DNA from: Gammaproteobacteria bacterium
GTDB taxonomy: Bacteria; Pseudomonadota; Gammaproteobacteria; Nitrococcales; Nitrococcaceae
NCBI GenBank assembly: GCA_030433275.1
Contig: JAUILK010000001.1
Location: forward strand, 62,001 to 126,000
Length of the DNA stretch: 64,000 nt
Reading direction: 5' to 3'
A model generated the notes under the pieces. The model searched no databases. It was not told where the DNA came from and worked only from the letters and a program-made list of their open reading frames with translations. The translations under genes and the position numbers were made by a program. Shown here one piece after another: positions 2,578-26,140 of this stretch; positions within the stretch are counted from its first letter, which is position 1; every line of letters begins with the position of its first letter.

Positions 2578-3696
2578 TCACCATTCCTCTGCCCCGGCCG
2601 CGGCAGCGGCACGTAAGGCGTCCAAGCAAACGGCCCGCGGCTCCGCAGGACGAATCAACTCGGGCATACCCACCGCCGCCGTCATATCCCGCCAGGCCTG
2701 AGACACACCCAGAGCCCACTGCCCACTTCGCGCCCTGCCCGCAGGAGCATCGATATCGCGGCACAAGCGTGCCAGGGCCACCGCAACCGCATCCGGCCAG
2801 GTTTCCGCAAACACTCGGTGATAATCACGGGGCTCTTCGTCGCCCAGAATCACGGTGCTGGGTACTGCCAGTCGTTCTGTGCCAGGGCCTTCCATCAGCA
2901 ACCGCCCGGTGTCGTCACGGGGCGCATGCAATCGGGGGTTCCAAAACACCGGTCCGTGGGTATCGGCAAGACTCAGAATGCCCGCTTCCCAGCCCAGGGT
3001 GATGCGGTGCATGAGATAGGAATGATTGTCCGGATCCTCGGGATGAACCTGGTTCTGTATTCGCAGCGCCACCGGAACACCGCCAATGGTGGCCGTCAGG
3101 GAGCGGAAAGGCGTCGCCTCGCTGTCGGACACTAGAGGCGGCTCCTGGAACGACCACGGTCGCAGTGAGCCCGCCGCCCGGCCGAGGATATCGATGAGCG
3201 GATAGGCCACTTGACTGTTGCACGCCGCATCAATGAAAGCCAACGGCTGTTGTTGCCGAAGATAGGCGGCGGCGGCAAGCAATTGCCGCACCGGCTTGAT
3301 ATCGGGATAAAGCGTGTTCACTGCATAGGCTGCGTTACCGGATCGGGCGGCGCGTAAGCACTCGACGATTTCCGAACTGTGCACCGGGTGTTCCTGGAGC
3401 ACGTGATACCCTCGTTCCAGCAACGCCTTCGCCAGCTCCGCACCGACACCGCCAATGGCCCCGGAGCGGACCACCACGCAGACGATGTCCACGTCATCGG
3501 GAATTCGTTCCGGACCGGTGAACAACGGCACACCGTAACGTTCAGCACAGCCCCGGGAATAGTCTCCGCCCTTAGCCAGAATTCCCGCCAATGCGAATCG
3601 ATCAGGGCGGGAAAGCACCGCCTGGATATAGATACGCCCAAACCCGGTGCCCGCGACCACCACTCGACGTCGGCGATCGCCGACCTCGCTCACCAT
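2578..3696 (-). CDS. Thiazolinyl imide reductase (YbtU/Irp3/PchG family)
   Basis: An NADPH-dependent reductase that converts one carrier-bound thiazoline ring to thiazolidine during assembly. The N-terminal Rossmann motif is VVVAGTGFGRIYIQAVL (residues about 11-27), and the family-specific LQEHPVHSSEI segment follows near residue 120. The length of about 372 residues fits the family. I prefer the ATG at 3696 (MVSEVGD) over the one at 3744, because it overlaps the stop of the downstream P450 frame (ATGGTGA), the coupling style used across this operon, and homologues start close to the Rossmann fold. Its presence implies that at least one ring of the product is reduced, as in pyochelin and yersiniabactin. 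Confidence 0.9.
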   Translation of the reverse strand: MVSEVGDRRRRVVVAGTGFGRIYIQAVLSRPDRFALAGILAKGGDYSRGCAERYGVPLFTGPERIPDDVDIVCVVVRSGAIGGVGAELAKALLERGYHVLQEHPVHSSEIVECLRAARSGNAAYAVNTLYPDIKPVRQLLAAAAYLRQQQPLAFIDAACNSQVAYPLIDILGRAAGSLRPWSFQEPPLVSDSEATPFRSLTATIGGVPVALRIQNQVHPEDPDNHSYLMHRITLGWEAGILSLADTHGPVFWNPRLHAPRDDTGRLLMEGPGTERLAVPSTVILGDEEPRDYHRVFAETWPDAVAVALARLCRDIDAPAGRARSGQWALGVSQAWRDMTAAVGMPELIRPAEPRAVCLDALRAAAAAGAEEW

Positions 3697-4885
3697 GCCA
3701 CCAGCATGCGCCGCGGCCCGCGAAAGAAGGTCTTGGTCTTCCATTCAATTTCTCCGCAAAGATGGATATCCGGCAGGCGCTCCAGCAAAATACGCAATGC
3801 TTCCTGCAGTTCGACCCGGGCCAGACCGGCGCCGATGCAGCAATGCATGCCGTACCCAAAAGCGAAATGCCCTGCCGCCTCATGGCCGATATCCAGCTGG
3901 TCGGGATTGGCGAATCGTCGCGGGTCCCGATTGGCGGCGCCCACCGAGGCAAACACCGCTTCCCCGCGCCGTACCAGGGCAGGGTGTCACCCACCTGAAC
4001 GTCTTCCTGCGCGAAGTGCACGAACATTGCGGCGGACGCCAGAGGGATCAGACGCAGCAGTTCCTCTACCGCGCCAGGGATCCGATCCGGCTCGCGCCGC
4101 AGGCGCTCCAGCGCTTCCGGCTGCGCCAGCAAGGTGTGAATGAAGTTGGGTATGTGCGAGGAAACGCCTTCGTAGCCCGCCACCAGAATGGCGATGCAAA
4201 GCAGTACCAGTTCGCTTTGAGAAAGGCGGTCGTCCTGATCGCGCGCCCGGATCATGGCGGAGATCAGATCGTCCTGGGGACCAGCCTGACGTTCACCGAT
4301 CAGGCCCATGATGTATTGGGACAATTCTCCTAAATTGCGCTGGGTCTGTTCGGCGGACAAAGCATTGGTGGACAGCAGCGAATCGTTCCAGATCTTGAAA
4401 CGGGGCTGATCCGCCACCGGCACCCCCAGCAACTCGCAGATCACCGACATCGGAATCGGCAAGGCGTAGTCCGCCACCAGGTCGGCCGGCGCGCTCCGGC
4501 TGACCATTACGTCAACCAAACGGTTGGCAAAGCCCCGCACGTGGGGCCGTAGAGCTTCCACGCGACGCACGGTAAAGGCCTGCAATGCCAGTTTGCGCAA
4601 ACGTGTAAATTCCGGCGGGTCCATAATGACAATACCGCCGGCGATACGGGGAAAGGCCCGGGGCACGCAATTCCTTCGCGCCGCCTCCGCCCGGCTGAAA
4701 CGGCGATCCGAAAGCACCAGCCGCACATCCGCGTAACGCGTCGCCAACCAGGCGTCGCCGTCGAACGGCAAGGTGATCCGAGTCAGTCCGGTCTGGCGCA
4801 GCGCCCACGCGTACTGTGGCGCAAGCTCCAGACCGTCGAACCGGTTGAAGGGATAGGCCTGCGGCTGATCCAGTGTGGATGTCAT
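3690..4885 (-). pseudogene. Cytochrome P450 split by a 5-bp tandem duplication
   Basis: A class I bacterial P450 (CYP107-like fold) read in two frames. The first frame starts at the ATG at 4885 (GGAGGG ribosome site 7 nt upstream) and carries the N-terminal region, an I-helix AGYEGVSSHI and the helix-K ERLRREPDRIPGAVEELLR. It runs to about 3984. The rest (VRRGEAVFASVGAANRDP, then the haem motif FGYGMHCCIGAGLAR with the Cys ligand) is in another frame and ends at 3690. At 3975-3984 the plus strand reads caggg twice in tandem; removing one copy restores a continuous protein. The present first-frame product lacks the haem ligand, so it should be inactive. It sits between the methyltransferase and reductase genes and probably oxidised the metallophore scaffold. 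Confidence 0.88.
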
Positions 4886-4932: not shown

Positions 4933-7158
4933 CTATATGCAGTGGCCGGACTCCGCGGCCGCCGGTTCGCCGGTTCGCAGCTCCGGCAGCCGATCAAGAA
5001 TTTCCACCCGGGAAATGACATCACCCAGACGCTGCCGACAGTACCGTTCCAGATCGGTGCGACGCAGAGGTGCGCGGTCGGTCTTGGCACGCGCGGCGAA
5101 AACCCGGTGCCCCAAAGCCCACAGCGGGTGCCCCGACGGAGGCAAATCCAGCACGCGCCGCAGGCCGGCCTGGGCCATGACCCGATGCCACTGTTCCAGG
5201 CTGAGGAAAGTGCGGCCTGATTGCGCCCGTTCGTCGCTGGCATCAGCCAGCATGAAGGCCTGGGACGCCATCACCCAGAATTCCTCCATGGTCGGCTCGG
5301 TGATCACCAGCCAGCCTCCCGGTCTCAGTAACTGTTGCAGCCAGCGCACCGAGGCATCCGTGTCACGGGCCGCGTTGAGTACCCCTCCGCCGATAACCAC
5401 GTCAAAATCGTTGGGCGAGAAACCCTGGGCTTCAGGGGAGCTGTCGATGTCGTAAATGGCGAATGTCACCCGCGGATCGTTCTCCAGGCGCCGAACAGCC
5501 TGATCCAGAAAGAACCGGGAAAAATCGGTGTAGAGATAACTCACCGGCTCACCCGCCAAAGCCGGCAGCACCACTTCGGAAGTGGCGCCGGTGCCGGCTC
5601 CGACTTCTAGAATCCGCATCGGATCGGCCTGCTCGTGGGCGGCAACGATCTCCGTCAACAAGACCGCGACCGCCTGATGTTGGTAACGCGCCGCCGGGCT
5701 TTCTCGATAGAGGGCTTCGGCGAGATCCATCCGCCCCGCCGGAAACAGAACCTCGACGGCATTGCGTTGTCCGGACAGCAATTCGGCAAGACAGGCGCTG
5801 TTCTCGCGGGCATACTCAATGGTGCCGGCGGAACCCGCCACCTCACGCCAAACGCTTTCCATGTCGTCCCAGGCCTGCTCCAGTGCCGAGTCATCATAGT
5901 CACCAAGCCGATCCGAAACCCTCAGCCCGTCGCCATGGCGACGCAACAACCCCTGCTGTTCCAACACCGCCAGCCATCGGGACACTAAAGGCCGGTGCCG
6001 TTCGGCGGCGCAGGCCAATATCTGTTGTTGGGAATATCCGGTTTCACGCTCGGTAAAAACACCCCGCCGACTTAGCGCATTGACCATGGACAGCAAAGCG
6101 ATGCGGGCCAAGCGCTGTGTCGCCGCAACCCCGACATGCCAGTCGAAGTCGGTGAAATGCGCGGCCAAACGGGTCTGGACATGGTCATTCCAGCAATCCT
6201 CCTCTCCCTCCTCCTCGATCATCGGACATTGCTCGGCAGGAACGGCCAACAACGCCCATTTCCCGACGCCATCCGGCAACACCCGGACCTCGCCCACCAG
6301 CGGGTGGGCAGCAGCTGCCTCCTCCACCCTCCGGGCTCCCTGTTGCAGTCGCAAAAACGCCTCTTTTGTGGGCAGGAATCCCTGGTCGGTGGGAACGACA
6401 ACGACGGTCTTTTCGCAATGAAGGGGACCGGAGGCAACCAACGACTCAAGATCGTTTTCCTCTGCCCCGGGGCTGCTTTCGATCAGCAGTGTCTGCAGCG
6501 GCGCGCAACGGGCCAGTACCGCCGCCGGATGCGCCAGCAACTGTCGCAGTCGATGTTCCGACACAATCAGGCGATCGGCGGCTACACGTTCGAGAAAGGC
6601 GAAAACACCGGCGGGTTGCTTGGCGCCGGAGTAATGAACCGGTGCGGACAAACTCCACGCTGCCAGGCAAAGCTCGCCTCCAAAGCCGGACAGAGGGGCA
6701 AGCACGGCAATGCGCCGCGGCACTTCCTCCAAGGTGACTCGCAGCTCCGACAAGGCGGCGCTGAAAGTGTCTTCAGACCAGGCAAAGGCGCCCTTTCGTA
6801 CCTGGTAGCACCAGGGCTCGTCCCGTTGGGCATCCACCCCCCTGCCGTCGACGCAGTCCTGGAGAATGGACGAGGAAACCGGCACCGCGTCACCGGCGCC
6901 GCCCGGTGCGGAAACAAACGTGCAACCGCGGGCCATGGCCGCCAATCGCAATGCCAGTACCTGACCGTCTTCCTCACCGTCCCAGATCAGGCTGTCGCCG
7001 ATGCCGAGACCTCGCCAGGACAGCGCGGCCCGGTACTGCTCCACGGTCTCCAGCATCCGGGCTCCGTTCCATTGCTGAGCATCGCCGTACAACACGGTGA
7101 GCTCGCGCATTCGTTCCAGTCCGTCGAAAATGATTTGGTGAAAGCTCATGGTCGCCAT
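4933..7158 (-). CDS. Stand-alone methyltransferase flanked by a degenerate adenylation domain
   Basis: About 741 residues from the ATG at 7158. The middle (about 340-690) matches in order the methyltransferase insert of the 1833-residue NRPS in this window: a helical lead with LAELLSGQRNAVEVLFPAG, the SAM motif ILEVGAGTGATSE (about 516) and RPGGWLVITEPT. The first 330 residues look like an eroded adenylation N-domain (RGLGIGDSLIWDGEEDGQVLALRLAAMARG resembles the A1/A2 region), but no A3 glycine-rich loop is present. The end retains a decayed A10 (LDRLPELRTGEP where NRPSs have LPLTANGK). It has no carrier or condensation domain. I infer a trans-acting C- or N-methyltransferase derived from an A-MT didomain; the substrate is unknown. 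It lies 10 nt after the preceding methyltransferase gene. Confidence 0.8.
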   Translation of the reverse strand: MATMSFHQIIFDGLERMRELTVLYGDAQQWNGARMLETVEQYRAALSWRGLGIGDSLIWDGEEDGQVLALRLAAMARGCTFVSAPGGAGDAVPVSSSILQDCVDGRGVDAQRDEPWCYQVRKGAFAWSEDTFSAALSELRVTLEEVPRRIAVLAPLSGFGGELCLAAWSLSAPVHYSGAKQPAGVFAFLERVAADRLIVSEHRLRQLLAHPAAVLARCAPLQTLLIESSPGAEENDLESLVASGPLHCEKTVVVVPTDQGFLPTKEAFLRLQQGARRVEEAAAAHPLVGEVRVLPDGVGKWALLAVPAEQCPMIEEEGEEDCWNDHVQTRLAAHFTDFDWHVGVAATQRLARIALLSMVNALSRRGVFTERETGYSQQQILACAAERHRPLVSRWLAVLEQQGLLRRHGDGLRVSDRLGDYDDSALEQAWDDMESVWREVAGSAGTIEYARENSACLAELLSGQRNAVEVLFPAGRMDLAEALYRESPAARYQHQAVAVLLTEIVAAHEQADPMRILEVGAGTGATSEVVLPALAGEPVSYLYTDFSRFFLDQAVRRLENDPRVTFAIYDIDSSPEAQGFSPNDFDVVIGGGVLNAARDTDASVRWLQQLLRPGGWLVITEPTMEEFWVMASQAFMLADASDERAQSGRTFLSLEQWHRVMAQAGLRRVLDLPPSGHPLWALGHRVFAARAKTDRAPLRRTDLERYCRQRLGDVISRVEILDRLPELRTGEPAAAESGHCI

Positions 7159-7168: not shown

Positions 7169-8326
7169 TCAGTCCGTATTGCCAAGCCGAGCCAGAAACA
7201 GATACTGTCCCGCCGCAGCCAACGGGGAATCGACCTGCGGCAGCACCAGCAACGGCTCGAACCCGGCTTCGCGCAGTTCCCGGTCCCAACCCCCGACATC
7301 TAGAAAAAGGCTGCCTGTGAATCGACGCCGGTCTGCCATGCCCGGCATCGGAGTCCTTGGCGCCGGAGAGAACAGGAACTGCATGCAGGTCAGCACGGCG
7401 TGGTTATCGCGGCACGATTCGGTGAACAGCAGCCAACCTCCCGGCGCCAGCAGTTGATGAATATGAACGAGGGTTTGCCCCAGGTGGCGGGCGTTGTGCA
7501 GTACATTGCCGGCCAACACGAGATCGGCGCCGGCCGGCGGCACCCCCTGGCTGGGAAACCCGGTATTGATGTCCAACAGCTCGTAGCGCATTCCCGGCTG
7601 ACCGGCGAACCGTTCACCGGCGGCGACGGTAAAGATCCGGGACAGATCGGAGAATAAATAATCCACCGCCATACCGTTCAATGCCCGCAAGGTGGCAGCG
7701 GTGGTCAATCCAGCGCCGGCACCCAACTCGACCACTCTCAAGGGAGACGGACGCTGCTCCGCCAAATGTCGGGCCAGATGGCCGCAGGCGGCGTTGAGAT
7801 AAGACGTGAACAAGTTGTCCTGATACGCGCCGAGCGCTTCCAGCACCTTGCCGTCCCGGAACAACAGCTGCTCGATGCGCAGTTCATCGCGGATCAATCG
7901 CGGCAAACAGGCCAGCGCCCGAGAATGAACCTCGGCCATGATCGGCGGGAATCCCAATTGGGCGTAGGCATCTTTCATATTCTCCGCCAGCTTTTCCGAT
8001 GCGTCCTGAGACGTAGCGACCGAGCGCCAGCGGCAGCCCCCCGTGCTCTCCTCCAACATCCCAGCGGCCAGCAAAGCCGCCAACCAGGACCGCAGCAGCC
8101 CGGCATGACGGGACGCGGCGCCTACGTTCGTCACAACCTGTTCCCGGGGTACGGAGTCACCGGCGGACCAGCCACATTGCTGAAGGCAACCTTGCATGGC
8201 GAGGCGGCTGAGGGTTTCCAGTCGTTCCATGGCCTCCGAAATCCGTGCCGGGTCGCACACCGGACGACGATGCCGGCGTACACCGGCCAGCCCGGCCTGA
8301 TGAACGACAGCGGGATCGAGCATCAC
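7169..8326 (-). CDS. Stand-alone SAM methyltransferase, NRPS-insert type
   Basis: A 385-residue class I methyltransferase of the type found inside pyochelin/yersiniabactin NRPS adenylation domains. Visible: a helical N-terminal region (residues 30-180), the SAM motif RVVELGAGAGLTTAATLRAL (about 193-212), the DYLFSDLS acidic strand and LLAPGGWLLFTES. It lacks any adenylation remnant, so it is a shorter relative of the 741-residue neighbour. The start is GTG at 8326 or the overlapping ATG at 8323; both overlap the preceding stop and sit behind a GAGGAGG box. Together with the NRPS-embedded methyltransferase, the cluster encodes three related methyltransferases, suggesting more than one methyl group on the product or functional replacement. 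Confidence 0.85.
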   Translation of the reverse strand: MMLDPAVVHQAGLAGVRRHRRPVCDPARISEAMERLETLSRLAMQGCLQQCGWSAGDSVPREQVVTNVGAASRHAGLLRSWLAALLAAGMLEESTGGCRWRSVATSQDASEKLAENMKDAYAQLGFPPIMAEVHSRALACLPRLIRDELRIEQLLFRDGKVLEALGAYQDNLFTSYLNAACGHLARHLAEQRPSPLRVVELGAGAGLTTAATLRALNGMAVDYLFSDLSRIFTVAAGERFAGQPGMRYELLDINTGFPSQGVPPAGADLVLAGNVLHNARHLGQTLVHIHQLLAPGGWLLFTESCRDNHAVLTCMQFLFSPAPRTPMPGMADRRRFTGSLFLDVGGWDRELREAGFEPLLVLPQVDSPLAAAGQYLFLARLGNTD

Positions 8327-9432
8327 AATGCGCCCTCCTCGGCTTCGGTGAACATCTCCAGAGGGCCGTCCAGGACGGTGAGACCGCTCACCATGCCAGT
8401 GGCGAGCAAGGACTCGACGGCAGATACCGGTTCCACTGCCATCGCCGCGAACTGACGGCCGGGGAGGATGTTCTGCTCCAGCGCCGCGCGGGTCACCACC
8501 GCCGCAAAAGCGCCGGTCAATTCGCTATTGCGGTGCCCCCGAAATGCCAGTGAACGAGTCCGCTGCTCTCCACTGACCACGCTGCCGCCGAGTTGCACCA
8601 GTAGGGTTACGAAGGGTGTTCGACCGGCCATGTCCAGGCGGCTAGACCGTTGCAGCAGGGAGGCGGCTTTCTCACGAGACATGCCGTGGACCCGATCTAA
8701 AGCCGCCAGAGTATGGCGTCCGGCAACAACCGTGTACCAGTCCCCCTGTTCAAGTTCCAGGGACGAGGCAACCCGTTCCGCTTCCCGGTTCAGGTAGGGC
8801 AACGCCGTCACCCGGCCGGGAAAGAACGGCAACCCCGCGTCACTGTTGCGGACCAGCACGCCGGGACAGCATCCTTGCCGCCATGCGGCCAAGGGCCGTC
8901 CAAAACCGTCCTCGACACTTTGCAGATAATCGTCGGCGGCCACCGCGGTAAAGTGATCGAGCAAACCGAAATAGCTGACCAGCCGACTTACTTTGTCGAA
9001 ACCAGTAGCAGCCAGCCAGCGCGGCAGCAGTCCGGTAAGACCGGGCTGCAAACCGGCAGAGAGCAGTGCCCGGCACCCCTGCTCACGGTAGTCGGCGTCG
9101 TCCAGAAGCGCGTACAGACCGTCATCGCCGGCCACATCCACGTAATCGGCGCCCTCTTCCAAAGCGACCAACGCCGGCCCCGCACCAATCAGATGGGAAG
9201 GCCCCGCGCAGTTGAGAAGCACACGACAACCGGATACGAACCGCGCCAGAGACGAACGGTCCATAAAATCCGCTTCCGCGGCTTCCAGCGATGGGGCATC
9301 CAGTGTTCTTACCAGTGCCCTGGCAGCGGCGCCGTCACGACCACCGATCCGCAACGGACCGAGCCCTAGCGCCAGCAAGGCCCTGACCGCCGCCGTTCCA
9401 ACCTCACCGTAACCTCCCAACACCGAGATCAT
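8323..9432 (-). CDS. Saccharopine dehydrogenase-like NAD(P)-binding protein
   Basis: About 369 residues. The N-terminus MISVLGGYGEVGTAAVRALL is a Rossmann GxGxxG loop, followed by ADFMDRSSLARFVSGCRVLLNCAGP, which is typical of the saccharopine dehydrogenase NADP-binding domain. The ATG at 9432 overlaps the ABC-transporter stop (ATGA). Saccharopine dehydrogenase family members include reductases and dehydrogenases acting on amino-acid-like or lipid substrates; this one lies in the middle of an NRPS operon, so a tailoring reduction or dehydrogenation of the metallophore is plausible. It is distinct from the thiazolinyl imide reductase, so the operon may have two redox tailoring enzymes besides the broken P450. 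Exact reaction unknown. Confidence 0.75.
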   Translation of the reverse strand: MISVLGGYGEVGTAAVRALLALGLGPLRIGGRDGAAARALVRTLDAPSLEAAEADFMDRSSLARFVSGCRVLLNCAGPSHLIGAGPALVALEEGADYVDVAGDDGLYALLDDADYREQGCRALLSAGLQPGLTGLLPRWLAATGFDKVSRLVSYFGLLDHFTAVAADDYLQSVEDGFGRPLAAWRQGCCPGVLVRNSDAGLPFFPGRVTALPYLNREAERVASSLELEQGDWYTVVAGRHTLAALDRVHGMSREKAASLLQRSSRLDMAGRTPFVTLLVQLGGSVVSGEQRTRSLAFRGHRNSELTGAFAAVVTRAALEQNILPGRQFAAMAVEPVSAVESLLATGMVSGLTVLDGPLEMFTEAEEGAL

Positions 9433-11171
9433 GGCGCTGCTTCCCCCGTCAGCCGCCATCCCTGGGCGCGATTGCGTTCTTGCCAGAACGCGCAATAGCG
9501 CGGATCACTGGCCTGTAACTGCCGATGCGTACCGGCGGCGACGACAACGCCGTCCTCAAGCATAAGAATCTGATCCGCCGCACGAATCGTGGACAGCTGG
9601 TGCGCCACCACGATGAGAGTGGAGCACGACTTCAGGGTACGGATGGCGTTTTGAACATGATGCTCGTTCTCCGCATCGAGGGCAGCTGTGGCCTCATCGA
9701 GAATTACGATCGAGGCTCGTTTCAACAGCGCGCGCGCCACGGAAATCCGTTGCCGCTCGCCGCCGGACAAGGCACTGCCGCCCTCGCCCACCGATGAGCG
9801 CCAGCCGAACGGCAACCGTTCCACGATGTCGTCGACACCGGCAAGCCGGGCGGCTTCGCGAACCTCAGCTTGGCTGGCCGTCGGCGCGCCGATGCGGATG
9901 TTTGCTTCGAGGGTATCGTTGAACAGGTAGACGTCCTGCATCACCGGCGCGATCTGCGCCATCAGATCTCCGGTGGTCAAGCTGCGAACATCGCTACCAC
10001 CCACCCGCACCGATCCGCTGTCGACGTCGTGAAAGCGCATGATCAGTTTGGTAAGCGTGGTTTTGCCGGACCCGGAAGGTCCGACGATGGCGGTCATGGT
10101 TCCCGCTGGCACATGGAACGAGACACCGTTTATCACCTTCTCCCCGGGCCGGTATCCGAACACCACATCGGAGAACGCCACTGATCCCGGATCGCTCATC
10201 GGCATGGAATGACCCGATTCCGGCAGCGGTTCCTGATCGAAGATGTCCGCGAGCCGTCGCAGATCGTTCGCCGCCATGCGCAGTTGCCCGCTGCGCGCCG
10301 CCGCCTCTGCGAGCGGACTGGCCAGCCGCGCGGACAGAGCCAAAAGCGCGATGAGTTCGACGTTGTCGATGGCGTGGGCAAGCGCCAGAGCGACACCGAC
10401 TGCCAACAGGGCAGCAAAAGCGAGATGTATACCCAGCCCTGCCACCAGAAGACGGGGGAAAGTAGCACTCAGGTGGTTACCGCCGGCACGGCGTTGCTCC
10501 TCAATGGCCTCCTCCAGTGGCGGGTAGCCCTCCGTGGTACGACCGAAAGCCCTCAACACTGGCTGCAGGCGAGCGAATTCCACCACTCGGTTACTGGCCT
10601 CGACACCGGCGGCGTCGACCTGCAGCTCGGTACGGGCAATCCATGACGACGACCAGTTATGAAGCAGGAATATCAGTGGCGCGGCGAATAAAACAGTCAG
10701 TCCAAGACGCCAGTCGAAATACAATAGAGCGACGGCTGTGGTGGCTGGGGTGAGAATTCCGATCGCCACTGGAGTCAAAAGATGGGCGAAGACATTAGTA
10801 ACTAACACAGTGCCGCCGGTAGCGCTGCGCGACAGCCGGCCTACCCGCTCCGACGAAAACCACCCCAGCGGCAGGGAGACCAGCTTAGCCCCGAGGCGGT
10901 CATGAAGCGTGGTCAACACCACCAGCGCCAGCGTGAAGCCTTTCATTGCCTGGCGATAGTGGGCGACGGCCACCAGCACCACCATCAGCGCCAACCCCAG
11001 CAATCCATAGCCCGCACGGGTGATATCACCGTGCATCATCGCCGCCAGCACCGGCACCAGAAAGGCGATGGCGACGCCCTGGAGTACCGCGTAGGCGATC
11101 AACCAGTTCAGATAGCGGTACAGATCCCGGCGATGCACCGGTCCCAGTATTTTCGAAAGATCACCGATCAT
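9429..11171 (-). CDS. ABC half-transporter (permease plus ATPase), YbtQ-like
   Basis: About 580 residues with an N-terminal six-helix exporter-type membrane domain (residues 1-310) and a C-terminal ATPase: Walker A VGPSGSGKTT, signature LSGGERQRISVARALL, Walker B IVILDEATAALD and switch VAHQLST. The ATG at 11171 overlaps the stop of the upstream ABC gene. In the yersiniabactin locus, paired YbtP and YbtQ proteins of this architecture form a heterodimer in the inner membrane that imports the ferric siderophore despite an exporter-like fold. The adjacent pair here is the natural counterpart; export rather than import cannot be excluded from sequence. Confidence 0.9.
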   Translation of the reverse strand: MIGDLSKILGPVHRRDLYRYLNWLIAYAVLQGVAIAFLVPVLAAMMHGDITRAGYGLLGLALMVVLVAVAHYRQAMKGFTLALVVLTTLHDRLGAKLVSLPLGWFSSERVGRLSRSATGGTVLVTNVFAHLLTPVAIGILTPATTAVALLYFDWRLGLTVLFAAPLIFLLHNWSSSWIARTELQVDAAGVEASNRVVEFARLQPVLRAFGRTTEGYPPLEEAIEEQRRAGGNHLSATFPRLLVAGLGIHLAFAALLAVGVALALAHAIDNVELIALLALSARLASPLAEAAARSGQLRMAANDLRRLADIFDQEPLPESGHSMPMSDPGSVAFSDVVFGYRPGEKVINGVSFHVPAGTMTAIVGPSGSGKTTLTKLIMRFHDVDSGSVRVGGSDVRSLTTGDLMAQIAPVMQDVYLFNDTLEANIRIGAPTASQAEVREAARLAGVDDIVERLPFGWRSSVGEGGSALSGGERQRISVARALLKRASIVILDEATAALDAENEHHVQNAIRTLKSCSTLIVVAHQLSTIRAADQILMLEDGVVVAAGTHRQLQASDPRYCAFWQERNRAQGWRLTGEAAP

Positions 11172-12934
11172 GCCCGTGCCGCCTCTTCCCGCTCGCCCCC
11201 TTCCGACTCCACAAACGTCTGCAGTCGCCACAAGCGCGCGTACAGACCGTCCGCTTCCAACAGCCGGTCATGGGTGCCCTGCTCAACAATCCGGCCGCCG
11301 TCGATGACGGCGATTTGATCCGCGGCAACGATGGAAGCCAAGCGATGGGCAATCACCAGAACCGTCCGCCCCCATGCCAGAGTGGAGAGCGCATCCTGAA
11401 TGTGCGCTTCGGATTCCGGATCGGCATGGGCCGTCGCCTCGTCCAGAATCAGAATCGGCGTATCGGCGAGCAACATACGGGCGATCGATACGCGCTGCGT
11501 TTCACCACCGGAAAACACCGCGTCCTCGCCAATCACGCTGTCGTATCCTCGGGGCAAGGTCAGAATGCGATCATGGATGCGAGCAGCACGGGCCGCCTCG
11601 ATCACCGCCGCCTGATCGGCGCCGGGCCGCCCCAGACAAACGTTGTCGCGGACCGTACCGCGCACCAGTTGCGCATTCTGCAGCACGAAACCCACTTTTC
11701 TGTACAACACGGAGGGAGCGATCTCGCGAACGTCGACACCCCCCACCCGCACTGTTCCCGCGCTGACGTCATGAAACCGGGGCACCAGCATGGCCAGGGT
11801 GGACTTGCCGGCTCCGGACCGGCCCACCAAGGCGGTCACCGTGCCGGGCCGGCAACTCAGCGAGATATTGGAAAGAACCTCATGGTCGTCGGCGTAACGA
11901 AACGAGACTTGTTCGAATTCCACCGTGGCGCCGACGGGACGGCGCGGATGACAACTCACCGGCAGCGGCTCCACTGCGAGCAACGAAGCGATTCGCTTTG
12001 CCGCGGCCTGGGCATTGCGTTGCGCGACCAGCCCCTGGTTCAACGTCAGTAGCGTTTGAGGAAGCGCCATGCCAACCAGGGTCGCGGCCATCACATCCAC
12101 AGACCCCACCCAGCCGTTGGCAAGAAACCAGGCCCCACCGGCCAGGGTCGACAGCATGATCACCGGCGCTGACAGCGCCAGCGAAGACAACGCTTCAAGC
12201 CGCAACAGGGGCCTGACCCAACCTGCATAGCGTTCGCTGAAATTACGAACCGCGTTCTGGTAACCCTCGTAGGCCCGTCCGGACTGACCGAAAGCCTTGA
12301 CCACGGTGATACCATTAACGAACTCGACAATGGCGGCGCTGACCTCGGAAAAGCTGGCGTCGAGTTGCGTCATTTTGTCGCCAAAACCGCGCATCATCCG
12401 GGCGTAAGCCACCGCGTAAACCGGCAGGGTCACCACTGCCAGCAACATCAGACGCCAGTCGAGCCACAGCAAATAGAGCAGTCCTCCCGCGGGTAATACA
12501 ATGGCGGCGACGCGCTCCACGTCATGGTGCGCCACCAAGTGATGCAGATCCTCCAAGTCGTTTTGCACCGCCTTACGGACGGCGCCGGAGGTCTTGTCGG
12601 AATACCAGCCCAAAGGCACGCGGCCGAGTACCCGTACCAGCTCGCGCCGCAGTAACGCCTGCATGCGATGATCGGCCAGATGGGTGGCCCAGAGCGCCAA
12701 CCCCATGCTGAGCCAGCCCAGCAAAAGCGCCAGCCCGATCACCGCCACGATCATTGCCACCCGGACGGTATCGAGAGGCCCTGGAGCCATCAACACTCGC
12801 CCCAATTCCACAATGGCGATAAAGGGAAGCAGCGAGCTCAATGCCCCCACCCCTCCGAGTATCACACCGAGGCGAATCAACCCCGCCACCGGGCGACGCA
12901 ACTCGTACAAAGGCTGGTTGGATGTGTGATTCAC
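11168..12934 (-). CDS. ABC half-transporter (permease plus ATPase), YbtP-like
   Basis: A 588-residue protein with an exporter-type membrane domain (about 15-310) and a complete ATPase: Walker A VGRSGAGKST, signature FSGGETQRVSIARMLL, Walker B ILILDEATAHADPE and switch IAHRLAS. It starts with GTG at 12934, overlapping the NRPS stop (GTGA), and its own stop overlaps the start of the second half-transporter, so the two are probably made in equal amounts and form a heterodimer. Its position right after the NRPS genes supports transport of the cluster's product or its metal complex across the inner membrane. Confidence 0.9.
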   Translation of the reverse strand: MNHTSNQPLYELRRPVAGLIRLGVILGGVGALSSLLPFIAIVELGRVLMAPGPLDTVRVAMIVAVIGLALLLGWLSMGLALWATHLADHRMQALLRRELVRVLGRVPLGWYSDKTSGAVRKAVQNDLEDLHHLVAHHDVERVAAIVLPAGGLLYLLWLDWRLMLLAVVTLPVYAVAYARMMRGFGDKMTQLDASFSEVSAAIVEFVNGITVVKAFGQSGRAYEGYQNAVRNFSERYAGWVRPLLRLEALSSLALSAPVIMLSTLAGGAWFLANGWVGSVDVMAATLVGMALPQTLLTLNQGLVAQRNAQAAAKRIASLLAVEPLPVSCHPRRPVGATVEFEQVSFRYADDHEVLSNISLSCRPGTVTALVGRSGAGKSTLAMLVPRFHDVSAGTVRVGGVDVREIAPSVLYRKVGFVLQNAQLVRGTVRDNVCLGRPGADQAAVIEAARAARIHDRILTLPRGYDSVIGEDAVFSGGETQRVSIARMLLADTPILILDEATAHADPESEAHIQDALSTLAWGRTVLVIAHRLASIVAADQIAVIDGGRIVEQGTHDRLLEADGLYARLWRLQTFVESEGGEREEAARA

Positions 12935-15900
12935 CGGTTCCCCCGCAGAGTTTCAGCCAGCCGGGCGGCGACCTCTTCCACATAGGGCGGTTCGATCACA
13001 CTGAAATGATTGCCCGGCACATCGACAAGGTTAAACACGCCGAGGCAGGTGTTTTCCCAGAATGGCGCCGCGTAGTGGCCGACACCGGCGGTGATGCCGA
13101 ACGACTGCTGCTCCCTGCAACGCAGATAGTTGATGTTTCCGACGTAGGGCGGCGGGTCGAAACGAGCGGCCCGCATACTGTGTCGGCACACCCGGAACAA
13201 GGCCGGGATCAGTTCGGGTCCGACCGGAACGCCGGCCTGACCGCCGGCGAGGCGGGCGTAGCCGGCCAGTCGTTCATCCTGGGGTATCGCCGAGCGTTGA
13301 CGCACCGCCTCCGCCACGGCACGCAGGCCATCATCACCATCCAGGCCGGCCATGGCTCCGGCTGGGATACGGCGGTCGTATTGATGCATCAACGTCTCGA
13401 TCGCACGGTAAACGTCTTCGTGCTCGACCCCGGCACCGAAGACATCTTTCACCGGATCAAGATTCAGGTTGGGCGCGAAGATCGCTTCAAACGCCAATTC
13501 TTCGTCCGTTTCGATGAACATCGGAATACTGTCCACCAACGTCAGATCGATCACCTCGAGACCGCGTTCCAGCAGGCGGCGCGACACTTCCATCGCCAGC
13601 AACCCGCCAAGGCAATAGCCGATCAACTGGAAACGCCGGTAACCCTCACCCACCAACCGCTGTGCGTAATCATCGGCGACTCGGTTGATCAGTTCCTGAT
13701 GAGGGATGGCCAGATACCGTTCGGGATCCGCCACCGCCAGCCCCACCACGGGCCCCTGTTGCTGAGCGGCCAGCGCCCGCCCGAGATGTTGGAAATAGTC
13801 CATGGTGCCGAGCGCCGCGTGGAACAGCACCCGTACCGGCCCCGCCCCGCCGCCGAACGGAACGATCAGGGAGTTACTACCGGGCCGCGCCCGCGCCGCA
13901 CCGACGTCCGCAATCGTGTCGGAAGAATTGGCGGCCGGTTCCGCGTCGCCTGGCGATGCGTGCAGAGCCCGGGCAAGCGCCGCCACCGTGGGTTCATTCA
14001 GCATCTGCCGCAGCAAGGCGTCGTAGGTGAAGGCCTGAGCCTCCGGCACGGTTTCGCGCAACTGTCCCGCCACCCTGGCCAGCACCAGGGAATCCGCGCC
14101 CTGATCGTAGAAGTTATCTTCAGTGCCGATGTGCGGCAGCCCCAGCGCCGCCGCCCACAGTGCACGCAAGCCGTCCACCAGCGGATCAGCGGATTGCCCC
14201 TCCGTGTGTCCACCACCTTGAATCAAAGGCGCTGGCTTCCAACCGGCCAGAGTCTTACGATCCAACTTGCCATTGGCGGTCAGCGGGAGTCGATCAAGCA
14301 CCTGTATATGGGCGGGCACCATGTAGCCGGGCAGGCGTTCGGAGAGGAACGCAAACACATCCGTGTCGGACAGCGCAGTTCGGTCGCTTTTGAAACGCGC
14401 CGCGATCAGGTTCATTCCACAAGCCGCCAGCGGATGCGTCAGCTCAGGCAAGCAAAGCAGGTCCTGCCCCCCCTTGCTCTTTAGCACTGCAAGCCAGTCC
14501 TCCCGAGATGAAAACGGCGCCCGACCGGTTTCCCGATCTCCGTCCGGCTCCATCATGAATCCCTGGGTCAGCAGAATATGTGGATGCTCCACCGTCGGCT
14601 CGGTCAATATCAGCCAGCCTCCCGGTGCCAGCAGTTCGATGATCCTGTCGACGGCCGCTTGCGGATCCCGAGTACTGTTGAGGACTCCAGCGCACAGCAC
14701 CACGTCCTGCGAGTTCGGCACCAATCCCTGAGTTCGGTAGTCCTGATCCAGGTCGAACAATCCGAAACGCATCCACGGCAGGTTCCCCCAGCTCTGCCGG
14801 GCCGCTGACAGAAAGAACGGCGTCAGGTCCGTAAACAGATACTCCACCTGGCAACCGTCCAGCATGGGCACCACCGCCGAAGTAGTGGCGCCGGTACCGG
14901 CCCCTATTTCCAGAACCCGCAGCGGGCTCGCGTCAGTGCGCTCCAGCGCCAGCCGGTTCAACAAGGCAGCCACGGCGTGATTGTTGTAGCGTGTAATCAG
15001 GTCATCCCGGTATAAGGCCAATGCGATGTCCTGCTCGCCTCGCGGGAACAACAGCTCAAACGGGTTTTGCTCCCCGCTCAACAGTTCCGGCAAACGCGCC
15101 ACGTGTGCCTTGTGATAATCGATGAATTCCCGGGCACACCAGTGCCGCTCGACACCGGTCTCGGCACGCCGCCAGGCCTGCTCCACTTCGGCGCTGTCGA
15201 TCTCGGCCGTTCTCCAGTACTGATCTTCGTTGTCCGCCTTACTCAACCAGCCGTGCCGCACCAACAACGCCAGCCAGCGGCGAATCAGCCAATGATGTCG
15301 CGGTTCGGCGGCCAGGGCCTGGATCACCTGATCCGAGGAGCAACGGGATTCCCTATCGACAAACAGGCGATGTTCCACCATGACGTTCAGCAGCGACGCC
15401 AAAGCGGCATGATGGAGCGCATTGACCTGCGTGCCCACGCCCTCGTATTCCAGACCTCGGAGCTGATACTCCGCCATCCGCCGCGCCGCTTCACCAAACT
15501 CCGCCGAAACCGGGTACGCCTCCACGCCGCGACGCGGTTCGACAAAACCCAGCAGCATCCGATCACCGCTGTCGTTGTCCTCGGTAATGGCGACGGCAGC
15601 GGCTACATTCGGGTGAGCAAGCATCGCGGCTTCCACCTCGCCCAGTTCAACACGGTGTCCGCGGACTTTGACTTGGCCATCATCACGGCCGAGAAACTCC
15701 AATTCACCGGATGGCAAATAGCGCGCCAGATCGCCGGTACGATAAAGCCTCTGTCCGTCCAGCGGATGGGAGAAAAATCGCGCTTCGGTCAAGACCGGAT
15801 CACCCAGGTATCCGGTGGAGAGTCCGAGGCCGGTGATATAGAGCTCACCGGGAACCCACACCGGCCGATCTCGGAATTCGGCGTCGAGGACACGAAATCC

Positions 15901-18432
15901 CTGATTCGCCAACGGACGTCCGTAGGGGATACTGGTCCATTCCGGATCCAGCTTTTCAACACGGTGATAGTTGGACCAAATCGAAGCCTCGGTGGCCCCC
16001 CCGAGAGCCACCAGAGACAGGCAAGGCGCATACCGACGAATATGATCGTGCAACGTCAGCGGAACCCAATCCCCGGAGACCAGCGCCAAACGCAGCGTTG
16101 TCAGCGTAGCCGGTTCTCCATCGAGGTAATTGGCCAGCATTTGCAATTGCGCCGGCACCGAGTTCCAGACGGTGACGTCATGCTCGATGACGCATTGCGC
16201 CCAGTGCGAAGGGTCGGCTCCTCGTTCCGCGTCCGGCAGCACCAGCGCGCCGCCCTGGGAAAGAGGACCGAAGATATCGTAAACGGAAAGGTCGAAACCC
16301 AGTTGCGCCAGCCCCAGCACACGGTCACCGGCATCGACCTCGAAACGACGATTAATGTCGTCGATGGTATTGAGCGCGGCCTGGTGGGTGATCATCACTC
16401 CTTTCGGGTCACCGGTTGAACCCGAGGTATAGATCACGTACGCCAGTGTGTCGGGAGCTCCTTGCGGTATCTGTGGTATCCGTTGCGCTTCGCCGAGCGT
16501 ATCCGTTTCGATCGTACGGACCGTATCGGGCAGATCCGATGGCCGATGGCAGGACTGAGTCAGCGCCACCGCTACCGACGCGTCGGCGAGCACCTTGTCC
16601 CTGCGCCGCACCGGTTGGGTCGTCTCTAACGGCAGATAAACCGCGCCGGCCAGCAGAATTCCAAGAACCGCGACTACCTGCTCCACCCCTTTGCGCATCA
16701 AAATGGCGACACGCTCACCGGGTTGGCAGCCACCGTCCCGCAATGCCTCGGCCACGGCCGCCGCACGCAGTGCCAAAGTGCGGTAACACAGTGTGTCTTC
16801 CGGCCCTACAATGGCGATGGCTTCCGGCGTGCGCGCGGCTTGTTCCAACACGGTTTGGTGCAAGAGCCGGTTCGACACCGGCGCTTCGGTATCATTAACC
16901 TGCGCCCTGATCGAGGTTTGCCATGCGGGAAGAGGAAGCGAATTGGCAGCGGACCAACTTCGACCGCCGGAGGCCAGATCCAGGATCAACGTCTGAAATG
17001 CATCCCACATATCGTCGATCAAACCTTCGGGAAACACGCCCTGACGGACATCCCAGTTCAGTTCCAATCCGTCCGCGTCATCGCGGACCTGGCAATCCAG
17101 GAACACTTGCGGAGTCTGGGTGACACCGTTCTCCAGCCGGCAACCGATATCCATTTCACCGGTTCCATCCAGACCTATGGCACTGGTGAACACCACCGGC
17201 ATGAAGGCGGCTTCGTGGCCACGCCGCCGGCTGATTTCGCGAATGACTTCCACGCCAGAGAACAGACGATGATCCAGGTCCGCAAACAGTTGCTCGCCCA
17301 GAACAGCCGCCTGCTCATGAAACGGGCGCCCGCCGAAAGCAGGCACTTCCAGCAGACTGACCGAGGTGAAATCCCCTACCAGACGGTTGACCTGAGGATG
17401 CAGCGGTTGACGATTCAGCAGGGTCAAATTCAGCGAGAAGTGAGGAGATCGGCTCCAGCGCTGTAGTACCGCAACATAAGCGGCCAGCACCACATTGGAG
17501 GCGGTCAGGCTGAACATGGAGGCTTGTCGCCGCAGCGCCTCCCAATGACCGCGTGGCAGACGCCAATGATGGCGCCGAAAGCGCGCGCGGTTCTCCGCCG
17601 CAGCCCGAGACAAGATCGGTAATTCCGGCGCACTGGGCAAAGCCTCCACCCGATCCATCCAGTAATCCCGGGCTCTGCGATAGGCAACACCGTCGCGCAA
17701 CCGCCGTTCGGCCAGCAGGTAGTCGCGGAACCTGATGTCCAGAGCGGGCAAGGTGTCACCGTGCCCCCGAAGTATCTGGTTCAACTCGGAGAATAGAATG
17801 CCGGCGCTGGCCCAGTCCGCGATCAGCGCGTCCAGAGAGAAATGAAGAATGTCGCCACCACGGGTCCGCGTCAGGCGCAACTCAAACAGCGGCCACTTGT
17901 CGGTGTCGTAAAGGCGATGGTCCATCTCCGCGCGGGACGCACGTAGATGCCGCTCCAACTCGGAGGGCGCCCAGTCCCGGCCGTCCTGCACCGCGATCCG
18001 ATAGCGTGGCACTTCCGGCAGCACGCGCTGGTAGCCGTCCGCGCTGATCACCGCGCGCAGCATATCGTGGCGGTGGATCAGATCGTTCCAGGCATCTTGC
18101 AACGCGGCCGGATCAAGTTCCGGATAGATCGCCTCCAGATAGCCGTGGCAGGCCACGCCCCCAAAACCAAAGGATTCGCTGCGTCCGAGCAGGTAGGCCT
18201 CCTGCACTTCGGTCAATGGAAAAGGCTCATGGCGGGCCTGGGCGTCCGCCGCCACCGCTCCTGCTTTATCCGTGCGCAACAGATCGATGATCTGCGTTTT
18301 GTGAGTACGCAACACCGCGATTTTTTCCTCGGTTAGTACTCCTCTGGGGGCACGGAAACGCAGTTGCTCCTCCTCTGCCCAGAGTTCCACTCCGAGTCCT
18401 TGCAGTTCCTCAATCAAGGCATTGGCGTTCAT
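12931..18432 (-). CDS. NRPS: docking-Cy-A(Cys)-MT-PCP-TE
   Basis: An 1833-residue terminal synthetase. Residues 1-53 form a TubC-like docking domain (LGVELWAEEEQLRFRAPRG). A cyclization domain spans about 68-500, with the DxxxxD motif DALIADWAS at 201. The adenylation domain (about 515-1400) has core FDLSVYDIFG, and the pocket residues read from the alignment are DLYNLSLIW, a cysteine code. A methyltransferase is inserted between A8 and A10 (about 985-1345; SAM motif LEIGAGTGATT at 1174). The PCP has GADSL (Ser1448). The thioesterase (about 1520-1833) has GYCLGG with Cys1607 at the nucleophile position instead of Ser. It adds and cyclizes the last cysteine, methylates it and releases the product. 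The start has a GGGAG box; 51 nt separate it from the upstream NRPS. Confidence 0.95.
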   Translation of the reverse strand: MNANALIEELQGLGVELWAEEEQLRFRAPRGVLTEEKIAVLRTHKTQIIDLLRTDKAGAVAADAQARHEPFPLTEVQEAYLLGRSESFGFGGVACHGYLEAIYPELDPAALQDAWNDLIHRHDMLRAVISADGYQRVLPEVPRYRIAVQDGRDWAPSELERHLRASRAEMDHRLYDTDKWPLFELRLTRTRGGDILHFSLDALIADWASAGILFSELNQILRGHGDTLPALDIRFRDYLLAERRLRDGVAYRRARDYWMDRVEALPSAPELPILSRAAAENRARFRRHHWRLPRGHWEALRRQASMFSLTASNVVLAAYVAVLQRWSRSPHFSLNLTLLNRQPLHPQVNRLVGDFTSVSLLEVPAFGGRPFHEQAAVLGEQLFADLDHRLFSGVEVIREISRRRGHEAAFMPVVFTSAIGLDGTGEMDIGCRLENGVTQTPQVFLDCQVRDDADGLELNWDVRQGVFPEGLIDDMWDAFQTLILDLASGGRSWSAANSLPLPAWQTSIRAQVNDTEAPVSNRLLHQTVLEQAARTPEAIAIVGPEDTLCYRTLALRAAAVAEALRDGGCQPGERVAILMRKGVEQVVAVLGILLAGAVYLPLETTQPVRRRDKVLADASVAVALTQSCHRPSDLPDTVRTIETDTLGEAQRIPQIPQGAPDTLAYVIYTSGSTGDPKGVMITHQAALNTIDDINRRFEVDAGDRVLGLAQLGFDLSVYDIFGPLSQGGALVLPDAERGADPSHWAQCVIEHDVTVWNSVPAQLQMLANYLDGEPATLTTLRLALVSGDWVPLTLHDHIRRYAPCLSLVALGGATEASIWSNYHRVEKLDPEWTSIPYGRPLANQGFRVLDAEFRDRPVWVPGELYITGLGLSTGYLGDPVLTEARFFSHPLDGQRLYRTGDLARYLPSGELEFLGRDDGQVKVRGHRVELGEVEAAMLAHPNVAAAVAITEDNDSGDRMLLGFVEPRRGVEAYPVSAEFGEAARRMAEYQLRGLEYEGVGTQVNALHHAALASLLNVMVEHRLFVDRESRCSSDQVIQALAAEPRHHWLIRRWLALLVRHGWLSKADNEDQYWRTAEIDSAEVEQAWRRAETGVERHWCAREFIDYHKAHVARLPELLSGEQNPFELLFPRGEQDIALALYRDDLITRYNNHAVAALLNRLALERTDASPLRVLEIGAGTGATTSAVVPMLDGCQVEYLFTDLTPFFLSAARQSWGNLPWMRFGLFDLDQDYRTQGLVPNSQDVVLCAGVLNSTRDPQAAVDRIIELLAPGGWLILTEPTVEHPHILLTQGFMMEPDGDRETGRAPFSSREDWLAVLKSKGGQDLLCLPELTHPLAACGMNLIAARFKSDRTALSDTDVFAFLSERLPGYMVPAHIQVLDRLPLTANGKLDRKTLAGWKPAPLIQGGGHTEGQSADPLVDGLRALWAAALGLPHIGTEDNFYDQGADSLVLARVAGQLRETVPEAQAFTYDALLRQMLNEPTVAALARALHASPGDAEPAANSSDTIADVGAARARPGSNSLIVPFGGGAGPVRVLFHAALGTMDYFQHLGRALAAQQQGPVVGLAVADPERYLAIPHQELINRVADDYAQRLVGEGYRRFQLIGYCLGGLLAMEVSRRLLERGLEVIDLTLVDSIPMFIETDEELAFEAIFAPNLNLDPVKDVFGAGVEHEDVYRAIETLMHQYDRRIPAGAMAGLDGDDGLRAVAEAVRQRSAIPQDERLAGYARLAGGQAGVPVGPELIPALFRVCRHSMRAARFDPPPYVGNINYLRCREQQSFGITAGVGHYAAPFWENTCLGVFNLVDVPGNHFSVIEPPYVEEVAARLAETLRGNR

Positions 18433-18483: not shown

Positions 18484-21400
18484 TCACAGGGCGCCTTCTT
18501 CTGTATCCACGGCGCGCGCCGCTTCGACTTCGATGGCCGCCGCCACATCCGCTAACATAGGCTGGGTAAAAAGGTAACGAAGGGGTAAAGTCACACCATA
18601 GCGGCGGCACAGGGTTTCGGTAAAACGGGTTGCCAAAAGGCTGTCGCCCCCCAGTTCGAAAAAACTGTGCTGTCGTTGCGGAAAAGGCACCTCTAGCAGT
18701 GCTTCCCAGATCTCAGAAACGCGCTGTTCCCACTCGCCCCGCGGCGCCCCGGATTGACTCTCGTCCTTCGAAGCGGGGCTTTTGAAGCATTCCGCCAGCG
18801 CGGCACGATCCACCTTGCCATTGGCGGTCAGCGGCAAGGCATCCACCACCTCGATGTGTTCGGGAACCATCGGCGGCGGCAACATTCCGATCAGGTGCGA
18901 ATGCAGAAGGTCGCCGTCGGGGACCCGGTCCCCGGGCCGCGCCACCACGGCAGCTACCAATCGCGCCGTTGAAGCCGGCCCACGCAGTACCAGCGCCACG
19001 GCATGGTCAACGCGGGGGCATTCCAGAAGCGCGGCTTCGATCTCTCCAAGTTCGATACGATGGCCGCGAATTTTGACCTGACCGTCGATGCGACCGAGAA
19101 ACTCCAACATACCGTCCGGCCAGTAGCGGGCCCGGTCACCGGTCCGGTACCATCGGCCCGTGGTATCGTCGCGGTCTGTTTTAACGGTAACGAAGCGCGC
19201 GCCGCTGCGCTCAGGATCGGCACGGTAGCCGAGCGCCAGACCGTCCCCACCGATCCACAGTTCACCGCTGACCCAGTCCGGACAATCCCGCCCTTGCTCG
19301 TCGACCACACGGAAACGCTGATTGGACAGAGGTCGCCCGTAGGGAATGGAACGCCAGTCGGCATCCACCGTCTCGACCTCATAGAAATTGGACCAGATCG
19401 ACGCTTCGGTGGCACCGCCCAAAGCGATGAAACGGCATTCGGGAAAGCGGGCGGTGAGACGCCTGGGCAGATCCAAGCCGATCCAGTCGCCGGAAGCCAG
19501 AGCCAGACGCAACGGCGCCGGTGGCGAGGACTGATCGCTGACCGTCAACAACATCTCCAACAAAGCCGGAGCACTGTTCCAAATGGTCGCACCATGTCGT
19601 CGCGCCAGTTCGTGCCAGTCGCGGGCCTCGCGTCTCGCCTGTTCGTCGATGAGAATCAGCGAACCGCCGGTGGAGAGAAGACCGAAGATGTCGTAGACCG
19701 ACAGATCGAAATCCAGGGCTGATACCGCCAACACACGGTCCTGCGCGTCGACACCGAAGCGGCGGTTAATATCGAGTATCGTATTCAGGGCAGCGCGGTG
19801 AGTAATCTCCACGCCTTTGGGTTCACCGGTGGACCCGGAAGTAAAAATCACATACGCCAGTTGATCCGTCGCCACCGGCACAGGTTCAGGCAAAGGCTCG
19901 ACGGCCGGTATGCGGGAAAACAAACAGGGTGATACCTGGTCCGGCCAGGATTGATTCGAGTCGGTCACCACCCGGCGAACACCGGCCCGCCGCAACACCC
20001 GATCACGACGGGCAACCGGCTGATCCATGCCCAGGGGCAGATAGGCGGCACCGGCGGCCAGCACCCCCAATACAGCGGCGATCTGATCCGGGCTCTTGGG
20101 CAGGTGCACTGCCACCACCTCCCCCGGAGAGACGCCGCCGCGTATCAATTCCGCGGCCACCCGCAGCGCGCTATCAGCCAGCTCGCCATAGCTCCGCGTC
20201 CCGGTACGCCCCCATCGCAGGGCAATCCAGTCGGTGTTTTCCCGGGCGTTCTGAAAGAAGCGGTCGTGTAAGGCGTGCTGAGGAAGCGGCGCGGTAGTGG
20301 CATTGACCTGTCGGCGCACTTCGCGTTGGCCCAACGGCATCAGGTCCGGCGGCGGCATTCGCCAGTCCATATCGCCCAACAGATGCAACAAACGGAGATA
20401 GGCATCGAACATATCGGCGATCAATCCACCGGGGAAGAGGTCCTCCACCACGTCCCAGTTCAATGCGATGCCGCCATCCGCTTCTACCACCTGGTGATCG
20501 ATCCACACCTGTGGTGTCTGCGTAACGCCCCAGACCTGCCGGCTGAAAGGACCGCGCTCCGGAACAGCGGTGCCACCGGGGACACCCAAAGCGCTGGTGA
20601 ACACCACCGGCATGGACACCATGGCATCCCCAGTATCCCGGGCCAACTCGCGCAACAGCGTGACACTCGAGCATGCGCGATGATCGAGCGCCTCCCCCAG
20701 TTCTTTCTGTGTTCGCCGAAGGCGATCAAGCCAGCTATCGGTGTTCCGTACCCGGTAACCAAGTAGCGTCAAGGACGTGAAGTCACCCATCACCCGGTGA
20801 ATGTCGGGGTGGCATTCCTGGCGATCAAAGAGAGTCAGGTTCAGCGTCAAGTCCGGACCAGAACTCCACCGGCCCAACACCTCGGCGAAGGCGGTCAGCA
20901 GAATAGCCGACGCGGTGACACCCTCGAGCTGGGCCCAGTTCGTCAGACGGGACCAGGTTGTGGCGTCCAGGTTTCCCTGGTAACGAACAAAGCGCGGCAC
21001 GCCGATTTCTTCCGGGTTACGGGCCAGCGGCAGCTCCGGTGCCGGCGGCAGTTCCGGCAATTTGCACAGCCAGAATTCCCGTGCTGTCTGCAGCGCCTGT
21101 GGCGAAGGCGCACTGTTTAGCCGGTAATCGCGAAACGACAAAGATATCGGTGGCAGAGAGGCATCGGGTTGCTGATAAAGCTGACTCAATTCCGCGTAAA
21201 ACATTAAAATGCTGAGTGCATCGACGATCAGATTATCCAGACTGATCGCCAGACGCGTGCCCTGTCGCGAACGTATCGCGCGGATGTCGAACAACGGCCA
21301 GCGTGTGGGGTCGAACACTCGATGCGAGGCTTCCGCACGCACCGCGTCGCAGACCTCGTCCCAACGGCCCTCCGCATCATCGATTTTGATGGAAAAACGC

Positions 21401-25144: not shown

Positions 25145-26140
25145 TCAGTTCACTGTATCCGACCGCTTTTGACGACATTGCCGACGCTTAAATGTGGACG
25201 GTTTAACGCCAAATTCCTTATAAAAAGCAGCAGCGAAATGACTGGCATTCGTGTAACCCAACTCGACGGCCACCCGCAGAACCGGCTGGCCCTCGGAGTC
25301 GAGACGGCGGCGCGCCTCATGCATGCGTTCGCGCTGAAATAGACCATAGACGCTATTGTTGAAAAGCTTTCGAAAACCCCGCTTCAATTTTATCGCACTC
25401 AGATTCGAAGCCCTGGCCAGCTCATCGATGGTGGGCGCCTGACTGAGGTTTCCCAGCAACAATCCCCGAGCCCGAATCAGTTTTTCCCGATCCGTAATCG
25501 ACAGGTTGCAGGCGCATTGGGAATCGGATTCAAGTGTTTCCAGCAATAGACTGACGAACAGCAGACTGTTGCCGAAAAGCCACAATCGTTTCCGGTTGCT
25601 GGCATCCTCTGGGCACAAGTCAGAAACCCGCAATGCCTTGCTGAGCGCGTGAGCGGTGGCTCTCAACTCCGCGCTGGCGCACAGACAATGGGCAAAACAA
25701 CGCCCCGAATTCAACGACCGTTGCAACGGAGCACTCAGTTCCCCGGCCCACTGAGAGAGCACATCCGGACGCATCATCACGGTGACGCTTTCGAACTCCC
25801 CATGCTGGCGGAACCCGCCGGACCGGCCCGGATTGTAATTGATACACCCATCCCCCTCGTGAACCGTATGGACGTGCCCAGGATCACTATCATCGAACCA
25901 ACTCTGGAACCCCCCCCGCAAAGAATAGGAGAAATGGATTCTTCTACTATCGTCACAAACATTCATGGTCACCGGATTCTCGAACCGGCCCTGCCAGACC
26001 AGCAGTTCCACGCCGTCCTGCAACGATACCCGCAACAACCGGCATTTTGACAACGGCTCCAGCTCGATACACGAGGTATTGGAAAGCAATGCGATCGCGG
26101 AAAATTCCCTCCGCGCCAAGATGGATTGATGTATGGACAT
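25145..26140 (-). CDS. AraC-family regulator, PchR/YbtA-like
   Basis: About 331 residues from the ATG at 26140, which has a GGAG box 9 nt upstream; earlier in-frame starts lack a ribosome site. The C-terminal 100 residues contain both helix-turn-helix units of the AraC/XylS family (TIDELARASNLSAIKLKRGFR and RVAVELGYTNASHFAAAFYKEFGVKP). The N-terminal 200 residues are a sensing domain. In pyochelin and yersiniabactin loci, such regulators bind the ferric siderophore and activate synthesis and receptor genes. Its place between the NRPS operon and the divergent transport genes suggests the same role here. Tandem GCCGATTCGGGC repeats just upstream are the likely binding sites. Confidence 0.88.
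   Translation of the reverse strand: MSIHQSILARREFSAIALLSNTSCIELEPLSKCRLLRVSLQDGVELLVWQGRFENPVTMNVCDDSRRIHFSYSLRGGFQSWFDDSDPGHVHTVHEGDGCINYNPGRSGGFRQHGEFESVTVMMRPDVLSQWAGELSAPLQRSLNSGRCFAHCLCASAELRATAHALSKALRVSDLCPEDASNRKRLWLFGNSLLFVSLLLETLESDSQCACNLSITDREKLIRARGLLLGNLSQAPTIDELARASNLSAIKLKRGFRKLFNNSVYGLFQRERMHEARRRLDSEGQPVLRVAVELGYTNASHFAAAFYKEFGVKPSTFKRRQCRQKRSDTVN

Follow-up and report, generated by a model that had tools for sequence, protein, structure and literature searches.

Does a P450 gene that is interrupted in mid-frame within a metallophore cluster represent a recent loss, a reversible switch, or an error in the assembly? The question is raised by the window analyzed here, a stretch of 64,000 nucleotides from contig C100 of one 3.4-Mb draft genome (104 contigs). 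The nearest genome is that of Nitrococcus mobilis Nb-231, and the window therefore comes from another Nitrococcus species. We consider it probable (roughly 0.78) that the gene served a dispensable tailoring step and has recently become a pseudogene through a 5-bp tandem duplication, with an oxazoline-type ring predicted to be left unoxidized.

The biosynthetic genes lie on the minus strand. An NRPS with the domains ArCP-Cy-A-PCP-Cy-A-PCP (18484 to 25056) and one with a docking domain and Cy-A-MT-PCP-TE (12931 to 18432) are followed by two ABC transporter genes of the MchC/D type (9429 to 12934), a saccharopine-dehydrogenase-like oxidoreductase (SrbE/MchE; 8323 to 9432), two proteins of the SrbF/G, MchF/G type, namely, a second methyltransferase (7169 to 8326) and a methyltransferase-bearing protein (4933 to 7158), the P450 slot, an Irp3-like thiazolinyl imine reductase (SrbI/MchI; 2578 to 3696), a VOC/glyoxalase-like protein (SrbJ/MchJ; 1848 to 2582), and a salicylate-AMP ligase of the SrbK/MchK type (231 to 1838). 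The srb and mch clusters are arranged in the same order. An AraC-family regulator, of the same type as in mch (PMC10080011), is encoded on the minus strand at 25145 to 26323, and an ABC ATPase, a large membrane protein, and a TonB-dependent receptor resembling mchO, mchP, and mchQ/S are encoded on the plus strand (26312 to 33142). Thioesterase, salicylate-synthase-like, and phosphopantetheinyl-transferase-like proteins, named by inspection, lie beyond the window.

The NRPSs have seven and five domains (three carrier, two Cy, and two A domains; Cy, A, MT, PCP, and TE), and the rare active-site cysteine of the thioesterase (GYCLGG) is common to the window, Alcanivorax, and Sorangium. Read by motif, the pocket of the first adenylation domain is D-L-F-N-L-G-L-I-H, versus D-L-Y-N-L-S-L-I-W in the two cysteine-like ones. 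This domain takes Ser in srb and is proposed to take Thr in mch (PMC10127202, PMC10080011), and in the window its substrate may be Ser, Thr, or Cys. Judged from its gene content, the cluster is a sorangibactin/mupirochelin/coelibactin-type metallophore cluster of a Nitrococcus species, with a P450 gene in the SrbH/MchH slot. A functional P450 is found neither in the window, where it is frameshifted, nor in N. mobilis, where it is deleted; it is not required for membership of the family because P450-less members exist.

Scans for Fur and Zur boxes upstream of the operon, the regulator, and the receptor gave nothing convincingly over background. Near the cluster, a small secreted-looking, histidine-rich protein with repeated DDGHASEHEHHHGN units (35602 to 36126, plus strand), possibly metal binding, is encoded close to a small membrane protein (34105 to 34791), and DDGHASEHEHHHGN repeats are found beside the cluster in N. 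mobilis too. Further along the window, 40052 to 48198 on the minus strand looks like a defense island, with a Type III restriction-modification-like pair, an adjacent protein matching DUF262-like defense models (HEC-05, PDC-M55C), and an integrase-like gene close by (38556 to 39776). At 56767 to 61554 on the plus strand, a candidate anti-phage defense protein matches the PADLOC family TmtA in full length (2183 bits over the whole model).

The P450 gene itself (3690 to 4885, minus strand; ATG at 4885, native stop at 3692 to 3690) is of the SrbH/MchH type, its slot being the one seen in srb and mch (PMC10127202, PMC10080011). At 3975 to 3984, the plus strand reads CAGGGCAGGG, which is a tandem CCCTG pair on the minus strand. 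The original frame encodes an N-terminal part of 302 residues ending in ..EDVQVGDTL (3980 to 4885), and the C-terminal part of 94 residues plus stop, starting with VRRGEAVFASVGAANRDP (3690 to 3974), lies in another frame. Both parts match Pfam P450, and the second holds the heme motif FGYGMHCCIG at about 3860 to 3831. The frame actually read past the lesion yields 427 residues (3602 to 4885; stop at 3604 to 3602), overruns the start of the next gene by 94 nt, and never reaches the heme cysteine ligand. The present frame has thus been shown, at the sequence level, to be unable to encode a full P450, and any translated product is predicted to lack the heme-binding part and to be inactive. The native P450 stop and the start of the reductase gene overlap as ATGGTGA (3690 to 3696, minus strand) in the window, N. 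mobilis, and Alcanivorax; the overlap suggests translational coupling of the two genes.

Three intact orthologues share the gene order of the window: those of Alcanivorax sp. 24 (83% identical), a further genome, G440 (82%), and Sorangium cellulosum So0157-2 (68%). At the lesion site they read ..VGDTLVRAGE or VGETLVRAGE with zero inserted bases. The original prediction, that a 5-bp tandem duplication had broken the gene, was therefore borne out: intact orthologues occupy the same locus, the reading frame of the window's gene is destroyed compared with theirs, and none of them carries the present sequence. A two-copy 5-mer is in itself ordinary, with 80 tandem 5-mer pairs seen in the window versus about 62 expected, and the anomaly, as far as the alignment goes, is the extra 5 bp. 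The status of the lesion thus rests on the comparison, since such pairs are ordinary and the orthologues are without the five bases. The intact orthologues need no recoding either, which makes programmed ribosomal frameshifting a barely conceivable way of restoring the P450 from the present sequence. The downstream frame does retain the C terminus with its heme motif, but a -1 (or +2) shift would be needed, and the single -1 slippery heptamer that the scan gave lies away from the site, at the far 3' end.

The original prediction had further regarded the event as a single one in an intact operon. The N. mobilis Nb-231 locus is syntenic with the window at about 96% DNA identity, and besides the P450 we found no frame-breaking gap between the two in the biosynthetic genes, the only other gap being one of 6 bp; full-length counterparts exist elsewhere as well, so the rest of the operon is indeed intact. 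In a gene-wise comparison leaving out the VOC gene and the 3' remnant of the N. mobilis P450, the other cluster genes were constrained (dN/dS of about 0.1 to 0.3, purifying selection). The idea of an isolated event was not supported, because a 963-bp deletion has removed most of this gene from N. mobilis and other clusters of the family are P450-less. The missing stretch corresponds to 3798 to 4761 of the window (minus strand; ends ambiguous by one shared base); the gene is left with its first 42 codons and a remnant of the 3' end. Since the junction shares a single base, the deletion was not repeat mediated.

The independent loss in the sister species also bears on whether the lesion is an assembly or sequencing error in a gene that is really intact. 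The genome is a draft of 104 contigs, and the gene shows no second lesion, as such an error would have it. On the other hand, the biosynthetic genes are otherwise free of frame-breaking gaps relative to N. mobilis, and an exact 5-bp duplication outside a homopolymer is atypical of short-read errors. We consider an error unlikely and retain a genuine lesion.

Past the lesions, one of the two wrong frames of the P450 gene stops at 3882, well ahead of the next gene, which starts at 3696, and the other stays open to 3602. Both the duplication in the window and the deletion in N. mobilis shift into the open frame. With translation carried beyond the point where the next gene begins, both lesions would spare downstream expression, and use of this frame may protect downstream translation; two cases could also be chance.

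How old is the duplication? No second lesion was found in the window's P450 gene, and its amino acid changes are not in excess, supporting a young lesion, as originally proposed. Pooled dS between the two Nitrococcus species is 0.11. We simulated neutral decay under the transition bias seen in the data, assuming that recombination had not occurred, and scored 264 positions, those at which Alcanivorax and Sorangium have the same residue. A gene dead since the species split is expected to show about 26 extra amino acid changes at these positions, and 84% of the runs gave it a stop codon (16% did not); over half the branch, five or fewer extra changes arose in 0.4% of runs. We observed 16 window-specific changes in all versus 17 Alcanivorax-specific ones, and no stop codon. 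Under this model, the duplication would have arisen in roughly the second half of the branch that follows the split. The duplication being young, the N. mobilis deletion is, within the model, most likely independent of it. Were the duplication instead ancestral to both species, the deletion would be later decay of a dead gene. Such an origin could account for both lesions entering the same frame and for the 963 bp being divisible by three when measured against the two-copy sequence of the window. However, the surplus over Alcanivorax is nil where decay over the whole branch predicts some 26 changes, even half the branch rarely leaves so few, and the absence of a stop codon falls within the minority of runs. 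We therefore hold an ancestral duplication to be quite unlikely and favor two separate losses.

Slippage between one and two copies had also been proposed to toggle the structure of the product, making the site a phase-variable switch. This did not find support. An exact tandem duplication could in principle revert, and no second lesion has so far accumulated, but a contingency locus has a tract of several short repeats whose length is seen to vary and this site has two units, among 80 chance-like pairs in a window devoid of any three-unit 5-mer tract. Moreover, the deletion in the sister species cannot be undone, an intact phase was not encountered in the genus, and at the site the intact orthologues have single-copy, diverged sequence, so that no repeat tract is conserved. 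We regard a switch as very improbable; reversion is possible but would be ordinary back-mutation. The pattern is better read as a dispensable step that has been lost more than once than as an on/off switch.

Lack of a functional P450 is not confined to Nitrococcus. In two Pseudomonadales genomes, G481 and G650, the cluster has no P450, and the methyltransferase gene runs straight into the reductase gene (sites L084 8882-8700 and L085 10259-10333); no relative of the window's P450 was found anywhere in these genomes. In an unrooted tree of five neighbor proteins, both group with Sorangium, apart from the Alcanivorax and Nitrococcus clusters. Loss would be the simpler reading for them, though not proven, because the P450 is present in each of the srb, mch, and coelibactin clusters. 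Similarly, Pseudomonas of the P. corrugata subgroup are without mchH, and P. thivervalensis still makes mupirochelin (PMC10080011). Class-wide sampling gave no further close P450, and searches of a plasmid collection gave distant ones only. Outside the cluster family, the closest relative that turned up (50% identical) is encoded on a plasmid of Streptomyces sp. NBC_01237 (L032 20001-21182) and does not lie in a matching cluster.

What would the loss do to the product? By chemistry, a product of this cluster type has a thiolactone end and an oxazole or oxazoline. Deletion of srbH stopped production of sorangibactin A and gave sorangibactin C, which is two hydrogens richer and was assigned an oxazoline instead of an oxazole (PMC10127202). 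The claim that one tailoring oxidation had been removed is thus supported by analogy, the orthologue SrbH being needed for the oxidation of oxazoline to oxazole (PMC10127202). In Nitrococcus, the assembly line would still run, and the first heterocycle would stay unoxidized and oxazoline-type where P450-bearing relatives make an oxazole, a prediction made by orthology with the srbH deletion. Mupirochelin is described by its authors as an aryloxazoline although the producer strain has the P450 (PMC10080011), and the role of the enzyme may therefore differ between pathways. As for rescue by another P450, the genome holds one other P450-family match and no relative at an E value of 0.001, with overlap in function possible.

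To our knowledge, no product is known from any Nitrococcus, and a literature search gave no report of such a metallophore in this nitrite-oxidizing genus. A pseudogene of a tailoring step in a known cluster family is ordinary in kind, and the parallel loss is neat: it offers a natural pair of independent knockouts of a P450 whose role was shown only recently, with the concrete prediction of a 2 H mass difference between the products of otherwise matching pathways. Taken with the P450-less clusters of Pseudomonadales and Pseudomonas, it suggests an optional oxidation of the first ring, a step that clusters gain or lose in the course of their spread. That loss was actually favored in Nitrococcus, two sister species each having disabled the gene and kept the other ~20 kb of the pathway so as to tune the metallophore, is a tentative idea that we consider doubtful. 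If true, marine nitrite oxidizers could in this way be adjusting, for instance, which metal the compound prefers or how private it is from competitors.

Among the systems compared, the N. mobilis Nb-231 cluster is the nearest, with the same order and a P450 also destroyed, although by deletion and not by duplication. The srb cluster of Sorangiineae MSr11367 (PMC10127202), for which S. cellulosum So0157-2 proteins served as a stand-in at the sequence level, is alike in gene set and order, in NRPSs of seven and five domains, in SrbE, SrbF/G, SrbH, SrbI, SrbJ, and SrbK, and in its salicylate synthase and cysteine thioesterase. It differs in that SrbH is intact and active and the regulator is LysR-type rather than AraC-type. 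The mch cluster of Pseudomonas sp. NCIMB 10586 (PMC10080011) shares the order A to K, the AraC regulator, the ABC ATPase, the membrane protein, the TonB receptors, and reported natural P450-less members; unlike in mch, the P450 in the window is frameshifted, and one salicylate synthase-like gene takes the place of MchN and MchM, which are separate in mch. Finally, a search with the window's P450 returned the PDB entries 3tyw/4fxb, which are CYP105N1 (SCO7686) of the coelibactin cluster of Streptomyces coelicolor (PMC3430247). This enzyme, likewise a P450 in a related zincophore/siderophore cluster, is intact and distant (reported identity to SrbH, 36%).
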